Below are positions 18,977-52,135 of a stretch of 64,000 nt of DNA, one piece after another (the first letter of the stretch is position 1; each line of letters starts with the position of its first letter). Position numbers and translations under genes: made by a program. The DNA comes from Paucibacter sp. TC2R-5 (GTDB lineage Bacteria; Pseudomonadota; Gammaproteobacteria; Burkholderiales; Burkholderiaceae_C): the NCBI RefSeq assembly GCF_025717605.1, contig NZ_JAJIRQ010000004.1, positions 132,804 to 196,803 of the forward strand. Reading direction: 5' to 3'. The notes under the pieces are model-generated. The model ran no database searches. It saw only the letters and a list, made by a program, of their open reading frames with translations, and was not told where the DNA came from.

Positions 18977-20440
18977 ATGATTTCGCGCGAACCCACCCTT
19001 GCCCGCCTGGTAGCAGCCCGTAGCCAATTGCTGGAGCCTTACGGCCTCAGCGAGCCCTTGCTGGCCAAAGCGCTGCGGCTGATCACCGAGCATCGCGTCG
19101 ACGACGCCGACCTCTACTTCCAGCACACCCGCTCCCAGGGATGGAGCCTGGAAGAGGGCATCGTCAAGAGCGGCAGCTTCAGCATCGACCAAGGCGTGGG
19201 CGTGCGCGCCGTGGCCGGCGAGAAGACCGCGTTCGCCTATTCCGACGATATCTCCGAGGCCGCCATCATCGATGCGGCCCTGACGGTGCGCTCGATTGCC
19301 GCCGCCGGCCAAAGCCGCCGCGTCAAGGTGCCCGCCAACCCTACCGTGTCGAAGAGCCGCTCGCTGTACGGCCCGGCCGACCCGATTGCCAGCCTCGACA
19401 GCACCGAAAAGGTTGCTTTGCTTGAGCGTACCGAGCGCATGGCGCGCGGCAAAGACCCGCGGGTGGCGCAGGTGATGGCAGGCCTGGCCGCCGAGCATGA
19501 GGTGATCCTAGTAGCACGCGCGGACGGCACCTTGGCCGCCGATGTGCGGCCGCTGGTGCGCCTGAGCGTGACCGTGATTGCCGAAAGCAACGGCCGGCGT
19601 GAGGTCGGCTCGGGCGGCGGCGGCGGGCGCTTTGGCTTGGCCTATTTCACCGACGAAATGATCTCCAGCTATGTCGATCAAGCCGTCAATGCGGCGCTGA
19701 CGAATCTCGAGTCACGCCCGGCCCCGGCCGGCGAGATGACCGTGGTGCTTGGCCCCGGCTGGCCCGGTGTGCTCTTGCACGAGGCGATCGGCCATGGCCT
19801 GGAAGGTGACTTCAACCGCAAGGGTTCGAGCGCTTTTGCCGGCCGCATCGGCCAGCGCGTGGCGGCCAAGGGTGTGACGGTCTTGGACGATGGCACGCTG
19901 GCGGATCGCCGTGGTTCACTGAATGTCGACGACGAAGGTTGCGCCTCGCAGCGCAATGTCTTGATCGAAGACGGCATCCTGAAGGGCTATATCCAGGACG
20001 CCATGAATGCGCGCCTGATGAAGGTGGCGCCGACCGGCAACGGCCGACGTGAGAGTTATGCCCATGTGCCGATGCCGCGCATGACCAACACCTATATGCT
20101 CGGCGGCGACAAGGATCCCAAGGAAATCATCGCCAGCATCAAGAAGGGCATCTACGCGACCAATTTCGGCGGTGGTCAGGTCGACATCACTTCGGGCAAA
20201 TTCGTGTTCTCGGCCAGTGAGGCCTTTTGGGTCGAAAACGGCCAGATTCAGTACCCGGTCAAGGGCGCCACCATCATCGGCAGCGGCCCCGAGGCGCTGA
20301 CCCGCGTCACCATGATTGGCAACGATATGCAACTCGACACCGGCGTCGGCGTCTGCGGTAAAGAGGGTCAGAGCGTGCCGGTCGGCGTCGGTCAGCCAAC
20401 GCTGCGTATTGACGGCCTGACGGTCGGCGGCACGGCTTGA
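18977..20440 (+). CDS. tldD: Metalloprotease TldD
   Basis: 487 residues. The TldD/PmbA peptidase family (M103). The zinc site HEAIGH sits in 'VLLHEAIGHGLEGDFNRKGSS'. TldD works with TldE (PmbA) to cleave unfolded peptides such as the CcdA antitoxin and microcin B17. The C-terminal half holds 'GVGVCGKEGQSVPVGVGQPTLRI', the conserved family tail. The partner gene is not in this window. Only a weak ribosome site precedes the start. Confidence 0.94.
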   Translation: MISREPTLARLVAARSQLLEPYGLSEPLLAKALRLITEHRVDDADLYFQHTRSQGWSLEEGIVKSGSFSIDQGVGVRAVAGEKTAFAYSDDISEAAIIDAALTVRSIAAAGQSRRVKVPANPTVSKSRSLYGPADPIASLDSTEKVALLERTERMARGKDPRVAQVMAGLAAEHEVILVARADGTLAADVRPLVRLSVTVIAESNGRREVGSGGGGGRFGLAYFTDEMISSYVDQAVNAALTNLESRPAPAGEMTVVLGPGWPGVLLHEAIGHGLEGDFNRKGSSAFAGRIGQRVAAKGVTVLDDGTLADRRGSLNVDDEGCASQRNVLIEDGILKGYIQDAMNARLMKVAPTGNGRRESYAHVPMPRMTNTYMLGGDKDPKEIIASIKKGIYATNFGGGQVDITSGKFVFSASEAFWVENGQIQYPVKGATIIGSGPEALTRVTMIGNDMQLDTGVGVCGKEGQSVPVGVGQPTLRIDGLTVGGTA

Positions 20441-20452
20441 TTGTTGCGCGCT

Positions 20453-20467
20453 AGCCGCAGTGCGGCT
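20453..20467. repeat. Small inverted repeat after tldD
   Basis: AGCCGC-AGT-GCGGCT, a perfect six-base stem with a three-base loop, 12 bases after the tldD stop. There is no U-run, so it may be a transcript-end stabiliser or part of the aroG leader's 5' side. Confidence 0.4.
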
Positions 20468-20499
20468 GGGCTGCAATATTCGCGTGCTACATTCAAGTC

Positions 20500-20571
20500 A
20501 TGCCTACGCAAAAGTTTTATACATTCTTTTGGTTCTCATACCGCACCGGCGGCAGAGAGGCGAACGCGTAA
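20500..20571 (+). CDS. Aromatic-amino-acid leader peptide of the aroG attenuator
   Basis: 23 codons from ATG 20500 to TAA 20569-20571. Residues 6-14 are F-Y-T-F-F-W-F-S-Y: seven aromatic residues (4 Phe, 2 Tyr, 1 Trp) within nine codons, far above chance. The rest is MPTQK before and a Gly/Arg/Asn tail after. It ends 95 bases before aroG and is followed by a terminator hairpin. Such peptides make the ribosome stall when charged tRNA-Phe, -Tyr or -Trp is scarce. The Shine-Dalgarno is poor ('TTCAAGTC' precedes the ATG), so initiation may be weak or leaderless. It is the same kind of device as the pheL and trpL leaders, but here it serves DAHP synthase. Confidence 0.8.
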   Translation: MPTQKFYTFFWFSYRTGGREANA

Positions 20572-20608
20572 ACCAAAAACGCAAATCAAATTTCTGAAAA
20601 CCGCCGGG
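20546..20608 (+). promoter_or_regulatory. aroG: Alternative (anti-terminator) pairing of the aroG leader
   Basis: CCGGCGG at 20546-20552, inside the Thr-Gly-Gly codons of the leader peptide, is fully complementary to CCGCCGG at 20601-20607, the 5' arm of the terminator. The same heptamer recurs in the terminator's 3' arm (20616-20622), so the two pairings exclude each other. A ribosome halted on codons 6-12 would leave the upstream copy free to pair and open the gate. This is inference from pairing; no energy was computed. Confidence 0.65.
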
Positions 20609-20631
20609 TTCACCCCCGGCGGTTTTTTTTT
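20597..20631 (+). terminator. aroG: Attenuator terminator in front of aroG
   Basis: Stem CCGCCGGG (20601-20608) / CCCGGCGG (20615-20622), loop six bases, flanked by AAAA before and a run of nine T (20623-20631). It lies 35 bases before the aroG ATG, too close to be a simple terminator of tldD, which ended 160 bases earlier. Confidence 0.85.
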
Positions 20632-20666
20632 GCTCATCGAATCAGAATCAGAAAGACCGCCACGAT

Positions 20667-21794
20667 ATGAACGCCAAGAATGTGAAAGCTGAGGCCACCG
20701 CCGAACGTTGGTACTCGCCGCAGGACAAAACCAGCGAGACCGATGACCAGCGCATCGTCGACGTCACGCCGCTGCCGCCGCCGGAACACCTGATCCGCTT
20801 CTTCCCGATTCGCGGCACGCCGATGGAGCCGCTGATTGCCGGCACACGCGCCAAGATCCGCAAGATCATGCAGCGCAAGGATGACCGTTTGCTGGTCATC
20901 ATCGGCCCCTGCTCCATCCACGATCCGGCCGCTGCGATCGAGTACGCCCGCAAGCTGCAGGTGCAGCGCGAGAAATACGCCGACACGCTGGAGATCGTCA
21001 TGCGCGTCTACTTCGAGAAGCCGCGCACCACGGTGGGCTGGAAGGGTTTGATCAACGACCCCTACTTGGACGAGAGCTACCGCATCGACGAAGGCCTGCG
21101 CATCGCGCGCCAGTTGCTGTTGGAGATCAACCGCTTGGGCATGCCGGCCGGCTCCGAGTTCCTCGATGTGATTTCGCCGCAATACATTGGCGACCTGATT
21201 TCCTGGGGCGCGATCGGCGCACGCACGACCGAAAGCCAGGTGCACCGCGAGTTGGCCTCGGGCCTGTCCGCACCGATCGGTTTCAAGAATGGCACCGACG
21301 GCAATATCAAGATCGCCACCGATGCCATCCAGGCCGCGGCCCGCCCGCACCACTTTTTGTCGGTGCACAAGAATGGTCAGGTCGCCATCGTCGAGACCAA
21401 GGGCAATAAGGATTGCCATGTGATTTTGCGCGGCGGCAAGGCGCCCAATTACGACGCCGAGAACGTGGCAGCCGCTTGCAAGGATCTGGCCGCGTCCAAG
21501 CTCGATACCACGCTGATGGTGGATTGCTCGCATGCCAACAGCTCCAAGCAGCACCTGAGGCAGGTGGACGTTGCTGCCGACGTTGCGGCGCAGATCAAGG
21601 CCGGCAGCACCAGCATCTTTGGTGTGATGGTTGAAAGCCATCTGATCGACGGTGCGCAGAAGTTCACCCCCGGCAAGGACGACGCTAAGAAGTTGGAATA
21701 CGGCAAGAGCATCACCGACGCTTGCTTGGGCTGGGACGATTCGCTCAAGGTGATGGAATTGCTCAGTGATGCTGTAAAAGCGGCACGCGGCTGA
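20667..21794 (+). CDS. aroG: 3-deoxy-7-phosphoheptulonate (DAHP) synthase, class I
   Basis: 375 residues. Catalyses condensation of PEP and erythrose 4-phosphate, the first step of aromatic biosynthesis. AroF/G/H type I enzyme: 'VIIGPCSIHDPAAAIEYA' holds the Cys of the metal site, 'RVYFEKPRTTVGWKGLINDP' binds PEP, and 'LRGGKAPNY' and 'MVDCSHANSSK' add metal ligands. The N-terminal extension (about 1-45) resembles the feedback-binding part of the E. coli enzymes; which amino acid inhibits it cannot be read off. The leader peptide and terminator directly upstream point to attenuation by aromatic amino acids. Confidence 0.95.
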   Translation: MNAKNVKAEATAERWYSPQDKTSETDDQRIVDVTPLPPPEHLIRFFPIRGTPMEPLIAGTRAKIRKIMQRKDDRLLVIIGPCSIHDPAAAIEYARKLQVQREKYADTLEIVMRVYFEKPRTTVGWKGLINDPYLDESYRIDEGLRIARQLLLEINRLGMPAGSEFLDVISPQYIGDLISWGAIGARTTESQVHRELASGLSAPIGFKNGTDGNIKIATDAIQAAARPHHFLSVHKNGQVAIVETKGNKDCHVILRGGKAPNYDAENVAAACKDLAASKLDTTLMVDCSHANSSKQHLRQVDVAADVAAQIKAGSTSIFGVMVESHLIDGAQKFTPGKDDAKKLEYGKSITDACLGWDDSLKVMELLSDAVKAARG

Positions 21795-52050: not shown

Positions 52051-52084
52051 CAAAAAAAAGCCCAAGCTTTTGCAAGCTTGGGCT
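52051..52084 (-). terminator. ilvA: Terminator hairpin in the ilvA leader
   Basis: On the minus strand: AGCCCAAGCTT (52084-52074), loop of four bases, AAGCTTGGGCT (52069-52059), then eight T-type bases (52058-52051). It lies 75 bases before the ilvA ATG. No minus-strand gene precedes it between the OsmC-like gene and ilvA, so it must act inside the ilvA leader or end a small RNA. Confidence 0.85.
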
Positions 52085-52135
52085 GAATCCACCATGGAGG
52101 CGGTGGAGGAGACAATCGGTGCGAGGCAAGCAGTT

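Follow-up and report, generated by a model that had tools for sequence, protein, structure and literature searches.

In the pheL-pheA and trpL-trpE systems of Escherichia coli, a peptide rich in the amino acid that is sensed is coded within a leader RNA that folds into mutually exclusive helices, 1:2, 2:3 and 3:4, with an intrinsic terminator ahead of the regulated gene. In the multivalent leaders ilvL and thrL, codons for several amino acids from a common pathway are united in one peptide. As for DAHP synthase genes, Neshat et al. 2014 are said to have described an attenuator of aroR-aroF in Corynebacterium glutamicum. Prediction of this attenuator is documented in the portion covered of PMC4046766. 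Among regulators, TyrR is described as limited to the lower gammaproteobacteria (PMC1173090), and where a large regulon survey treats TyrR and TrpR it deals with gammaproteobacterial lineages (PMC5343134), as far as the sections covered go. The consequence is that the regulator of aroG in the organism considered here looked open. The portions covered of four surveys (PMC2965389, PMC3766115, PMC5343134, PMC1262725) carry no mention of an aroG leader, and searches of the open-licence literature of PubMed Central yielded no account of the proteobacterial leader described here.

The leader gene and its surroundings

The window is the whole stretch of DNA that was analysed, 64,000 nucleotides of Paucibacter sp. 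TC2R-5, and all positions below refer to it. Its relevant genes and signals are as follows.

18977-20440, forward strand: tldD, scoring above the cut-off of NF008006
20485-20493, forward strand: probable extended -10 element TGCTACATT, a TGnTAnA[GT]T box at conserved spacing
20500-20571, forward strand: leader peptide gene coding for MPTQKFYTFFWFSYRTGGREANA, 23 codons, ATG at 20500, stop codon at 20569-20571
within 20515-20541, forward strand: aromatic codons 6, 7, 9-12 and 14 of the leader, assigned from sequence and codon conservation
20667-21794, forward strand: aroG-type class I DAHP synthase gene (375 aa; PF00793, TIGR00034), the presumed regulated gene

The DAHP synthase contains PF00793 and passes the TIGR00034 cut-off, and the AroG model NF006723 gives it 540 bits, just under its cut-off of 568. 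The leader ATG lies 59 bases downstream of the end of tldD. A tldD-aroG neighbourhood is common to many relatives, both with the leader (67) and without it (9). Codons 6 to 14 of the leader read F, Y, T, F, F, W, F, S, Y, exactly the 4 Phe, 2 Tyr and 1 Trp that an earlier note on this DNA had recognized in a frame of 23 codons. Among 825 short ATG frames on both strands of the window, this one alone has at least five aromatic residues per 10 codons, and dinucleotide shuffles of 20441-20666 produced 7 aromatics in none of 5000 trials and 6 in 4 of 5000, which rules out a chance origin of the frame.

Conservation of the leader peptide

Relatives of the gene were collected to the number of 110 (30 + 80), holding 109 distinct loci since the sequence of L031 is that of L003; the closest named ones are a Roseateles MAG (96%) and Pelomonas (84%). 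An aromatic leader lies upstream of the gene in 87 of the 110 loci, a count that includes L024, L037 and L043, and takes L056 (only 4 upstream bases) as being without a leader; L085 and L107 have no true leader. The 83 leader rows retained comprise 81 distinct sequences and 65 distinct segment sets. Sets were divided by gene similarity and by eye, with no tree; set A consists of 54 leaders from L001-L080, minus L024-L027, L071, L075, L076 and identical rows (e.g. L031). Within the genus, 15 of 18 loci have the leader. At the threshold used, none was seen in the same-genus loci L015, L017 and L018 nor, for example, in three Polynucleobacter and two Cupriavidus loci. In L017 and L018, what appears in L015 as a terminator stem is interrupted by 166 bases whose ends are inverted (AGGGATGCTC ... 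GAGCATCCCT); this may be a small mobile insertion.

The peptides vary in detail, as in FYFAYFWFS from Comamonadaceae-type loci, KFYFYFFW from Burkholderia, Caballeronia and Paraburkholderia, or FFTGYFYFSNSNPKAVE from Rugamonas. When 54 leaders are aligned on their Trp codon, TTT and TTC replace each other among the aromatic codons, as do TAT and TAC, and columns -6 to +1 contain a single TTG and TTA not at all. This indicates that the amino acid is conserved, and not merely richness in U; an incidental U-rich tract is thereby ruled out.

Probable start of the leader transcript

Of the 54 leaders of set A, which extends from Roseateles to Comamonadaceae, 52 have a TGnTAnA[GT]T box (TGnTAnATA being also accepted in the count) whose end lies 6-8 nt ahead of the leader ATG; at six control spacings none has it. 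None of the 54 has AGGA, GGAG or GAGG as a Shine-Dalgarno sequence in the 18 nt before the ATG. Together, these features suggest that the leader mRNA of set A is probably leaderless. A scan of 20000-21000 for a two-hexamer consensus promoter gave no site, hence no recognisable -35 element. In the window, the box at 20485-20493 would probably place the transcript start at 20500, the A of the leader ATG, or within some 2 nt of it, contrary to the earlier assumption of a start well before 20500.

This layout appears to be specific to the clade. In the order-wide set described below, where the choice of start codons was automatic and probably mistaken in some cases (e.g. L207, L227), a -10-like box stands 6-8 nt before the chosen start in only 14 of 95 leaders. 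Burkholderia-type loci display instead, by eye, a TATAAA-like box some 35-40 nt upstream. The leaders of a second order resemble set A in layout: by a crude count, a TATnnn hexamer ends 7-9 nt before the start in 26 of 30. For B. cenocepacia, the part covered of PMC4603805 reports leaderless genes immediately preceded by a promoter motif.

Predicted mutually exclusive RNA structures

The leader RNA may fold in competing ways, which involve the following segments.

20528-20544, forward strand: segment 1, 5' strand of the predicted hairpin 1:2, pairing with 20549-20564
20546-20558, forward strand: segment 2, CCGGCGGCAGAGA, the antiterminator strand, within the leader gene, pairing with 20591-20607
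20591-20608, forward strand: segment 3, common by folding to antiterminator (2:3) and terminator (3:4)
20596-20631, forward strand: intrinsic terminator (3:4), stem 20596-20608/20615-20627, U run 20623-20631

The core arms of the terminator (20601-20608/20615-20622) extend to 13 pairs if A-U and G-U are counted, for -22.8 kcal/mol alone. Its nine T residues end 35 bases ahead of the aroG ATG at 20667, and CCGGCGG at 20546-20552 is identical to part of its 3' arm and complementary to its 5' arm, all as the earlier note had it. Terminator-like sites are not rare by themselves (2 in 20000-21000, for 1.1 expected), so that the weight is carried by the combination with the leader and by conservation. 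A terminator was reported for each of 87 tabulated loci, one of which (L085) is not a true leader.

The 2:3 pairing (20546-20558/20591-20607) is obtained when the 3' arm of the terminator is held unpaired. Its core is the complementarity of GGCGG to the 5' arm of the terminator. Of 85 leaders, 83 contain this pentamer between +36 and +66 of their gene, its exact form being absent from L024 and L037, and it is present in all 30 leaders of the second order; both the aromatic codons and the heptamer, on whose conservation in related aroG leaders the earlier interpretation depended, are retained (87 of 110 loci have the leader). Windows of equal size adjacent to the expected one contain GGCGG in at most 2 of 81 leaders, and windows further upstream in 12-20 of 81. 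As it occurs in the three reading phases (phases 0, 2 and 1 in 43, 35 and 3 of the 81 distinct leaders), coding for different residues, it must be held as RNA.

Hairpin 1:2, which had been overlooked in the RNA scheme of the earlier note, is predicted in the window as three helices (20528-20531/20561-20564, 20533-20537/20555-20559 and 20541-20544/20549-20552) and supported in alignment A1 and in an Oxalobacteraceae-type set. Its helix TTCTC:GAGAG is 92.1% paired in 58 sequences, with changes on both sides in three of five pairs. Taken together, the 1:2 and 2:3 helices, which were picked from the same sequences as those used to test them, are 94.9% paired, against 39.7-58.1% when slid, and in 4 of their pairs both partners have changed (1.2 after shuffling); further pair types are no more numerous than in shuffled controls (9 vs 9.0). 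In a third set, which comprises the Burkholderia type along with some others, helix 1:2 and the outer helices of 2:3 do better than shuffled partners but not better than the partners taken from other sets, and this counts against a uniform model.

As to covariation in the stems, which had been suggested as a check, helix 1:2 has the changes on both sides given above, and the base 5' of GGCGG varies along with its partner; it pairs with segment 3 in 51 of the 65 distinct sets against 39.3 after shuffling, a value reached by none of 2000 shuffles, in a comparison that ignores relatedness; C-G, T-A and A-T all occur there. At offset -2 a small excess persists (47 of 65 vs 42.9, reached by 46 of 2000 shuffles), and at offset -3 there is none (21 vs 18.8, reached by 563 of 2000). 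By contrast, the five core 2:3 pairs are invariant and speak neither for nor against a switch, and RNAalifold gave no covariation term on the large alignment.

A candidate attenuator of aroG

The frame, the terminator, the alternative pairings, conservation at the level of codons and, for segment 2, of RNA, and the tie to DAHP synthase documented below are all found by computation. They support the earlier inference of a ribosome-mediated attenuator before aroG, and the leader region is very probably a transcription attenuator of this kind. A plausible course of events would be as follows. Transcription would start at or beside the leader ATG, and a ribosome would translate the run of aromatic codons while RNA polymerase makes the remainder of the leader. 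Were charged tRNA-Phe or tRNA-Tyr scarce (in this clade probably also tRNA-Trp), the ribosome would stall on codons 6-12 and open hairpin 1:2, freeing segment 2 to pair with segment 3; helix 2:3 would then form before the 3' arm of the terminator is made, and aroG would be transcribed. With sufficient amino acids, the ribosome would cover segment 2, allowing 3:4 to form, and transcription would end at 20623-20631.

Folding was also simulated with a ribosome whose footprint was assumed to be about 30 nt. When the window's RNA has been made as far as 20611, a ribosome stalled on codons 6-12 still allows 6-7 core 2:3 pairs. A simulated stall at Tyr14 removes them all, in keeping with an earlier remark that a ribosome halted there would mask the heptamer; L002-L004, the nearest relatives, have N or H at the corresponding position. 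Across the 81 distinct leaders, the 2:3 core forms in nascent RNA in 80 when the ribosome sits on at least half of the aromatic codons, and in none when it stands three codons past the last one, a figure that is largely set by spacing. In 31 of the 81, the core forms even with no ribosome. The model is weakest for what follows full translation: with the ribosome at the stop codon, the 2:3 core is still possible in 40 of 81 leaders, the window included (6 pairs). Moreover, the minimum-energy fold of the full-length leader is the terminator at every simulated position of the ribosome, stalls included, so that the switch must be kinetic, with the antiterminator forming first.

Distribution of the leader

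A covariance model, R1, was built from 49 leaders. It matches 108 of 399 genomes of the window's order, two of these twice, and because it was trained on the collected relatives a match is built in for at least G000, G029 and G034. Of the 110 matches listed, 106 were examined and 101 precede a DAHP synthase gene, the other five being the weakest; the remaining four (G024, G025, G033, G034) are also beside DAHP synthase. The search upstream of DAHP synthase genes in Burkholderiales that the earlier note proposed finds aromatic leaders in many relatives (87 of 110 loci; 108 of 399 genomes with R1). There are exceptions: six of the 101 order-scan loci before DAHP synthase (L182, L195, L219, L226, L228, L230) are without a frame of at least four aromatics in 10 codons, and 10 of the 95 order-wide leaders are without GGCGG at +36 to +70. 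Among the five weakest matches, L232 (G330, E 8.9e-5) has a leucine-rich leader, MELFIAALLSLLLLSRL..., and a terminator before an acetyltransferase-like gene and leuA, coding for 2-isopropylmalate synthase.

In the wider class, R1 matches 18 of 369 genomes. Three belong to the family of the window; four lie outside the order, have E < 1e-7 and precede DAHP synthase; the other eleven are weak (E 1.1e-4 and up) and have no DAHP synthase. Within the order of G584, perhaps the Xanthomonadales, 37 of 151 genomes are matched. Outside the window's order, all 31 loci checked (30 of these 37, the seven weakest left out, and L238 from the class scan) combine a DAHP synthase gene with an aromatic leader, which in many of them contains FYFWYYFPKPLAEEG or a sequence close to it. 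No aromatic leader was seen at 14 second-copy DAHP synthases of the same family (L111 of this genome and L112-L124), three of which gave scan matches judged by eye not to be leaders, and a plasmid collection contained no similar DNA.

No Rfam family reaches its threshold in the window's stretch or in nine related loci. On the leader, Phe_leader (RF01859) gives 22.9 bits for a gathering score of 55 and Leu_leader 24.4 bits for 50; a known Rfam leader or small RNA is thereby ruled out. As a consequence, such leaders may be missed in annotation, and the RNAs that end at their terminators mistaken for small RNAs. A weak match to ncS54 pointed to PMC5688073, in whose main text neither 'aroG' nor 'DAHP' occurs; that work's compilation of 82 short B. 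cenocepacia 5' UTRs might already include an aroG leader. Elsewhere in the window, 52052-52114 on the reverse strand matches RF02278, a Betaproteobacteria toxic small RNA, with 62.7 bits (gathering score 50).

Which amino acids are sensed, and other readings

The earlier note proposed that one peptide senses three amino acids. The codons for all three are indeed present in the window, but this is not general: Tyr is found in 79, Trp in 66 and all three aromatics in 64 of the 81 distinct leaders, and order-wide Trp occurs within the first 20 residues in 46 of 95. Attenuation might then sense Phe only, or Phe and Tyr, Trp being kept because its codon overlaps helix 1:2, a view that is compatible with an attenuator and to which we would grant a little under an even chance. 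The Trp codon takes part in the predicted 1:2 hairpin through its U and G, Trp is missing from 15 of 81 distinct leaders and 49 of 95 order-wide, and the C. glutamicum aroR peptide (Phe-Tyr-Phe) is reported, in the part covered of PMC11802643, to respond to Phe and not to Tyr. Against this, a simulated stall at Trp11 keeps all 7 core 2:3 pairs, the three amino acids stand together in the 64 leaders just counted, and Trp, Tyr and Phe lie within ten codons in 31 of 31 leaders outside the order. That a single leaderless peptide gene acts as a combined gauge of Phe, Tyr and Trp at the entry of the aromatic pathway, as an old switch of at least two orders of the class, whose decision would depend on leaderless (70S-type) initiation because the mRNA begins at the AUG and has no 5' UTR, can only be put forward tentatively, as a possibility somewhat short of likely.

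Two further readings deny the attenuator itself. The terminator could simply end the upstream tldD transcript, the aromatic frame being incidental: tldD ends 59 bases before the leader ATG and lies upstream in 67 of 87 leader loci. Yet no tldD was detected upstream in the 20 others (some of their contigs being short), nine tldD-bearing loci have no leader, and codon-level conservation and segment 2 would be left unexplained; on these grounds, the 20 loci in particular, this account was rejected as very improbable. Just as improbable is that the leader gives an independent small RNA or a small peptide acting in trans, despite the terminated RNA of about 130 nt that is expected and the trans activity of the trpL leader RNA and peptide of Sinorhizobium meliloti (PMC7298713, in the part covered), for the tie of 101 of 106 examined matches to one kind of gene makes a free small RNA unlikely and no Rfam family reaches its gathering score on the leader.

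Attenuation of aroG, the reading we prefer, would provide a concrete and testable control for the first committed aromatic step in Burkholderiales and another order. The leader set is widespread and, as a putative attenuator, of a known kind; what is special to it is the clade-specific, probably leaderless form and the mixture of aromatic codons. With the former, attenuation lacking a 5' UTR could be tested in a simple natural case; with the latter, one could ask what weight a single peptide gives to each of several amino acids. Control of DAHP synthase is also useful for engineering producers of aromatic compounds.

Comparison with known systems

The E. coli leaders pheL-pheA and trpL-trpE respond to one amino acid each and govern genes of terminal branches, whereas the present leader has mixed aromatic codons and precedes DAHP synthase. 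In this respect it resembles ilvL and thrL, which belong to the branched-chain and threonine pathways rather than to the aromatic one. C. glutamicum aroR-aroF has a Phe-Tyr-Phe leader peptide before a DAHP synthase gene, with ribosome stalling reported; it belongs, however, to another phylum, has another peptide and is reported to respond to Phe and not to Tyr, a comparison made by description only (PMC11802643, in the part covered). For two Vibrio species, an attenuator is predicted upstream of aroAI-alpha-Y > tyrA, again with a DAHP synthase gene and in a gammaproteobacterium; these entries come from a web database of predictions, name no leader peptide in the part covered and are set beside our leader by description only (PMC1173090, Table 7). 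A parallel in the architecture of the start is the S. meliloti trpL attenuator, where the 5' end of the leader RNA is the leader ATG, as predicted here, even though it uses Trp codons, controls trpE(G) and belongs to the Alphaproteobacteria (PMC7298713, in the part covered). The features of this trpL type, a -10 element that would place the start at the ATG and no Shine-Dalgarno sequence, are found in the window and in 52 of 54 set A leaders; across the order, a -10-like box so placed stands in only 14 of 95.
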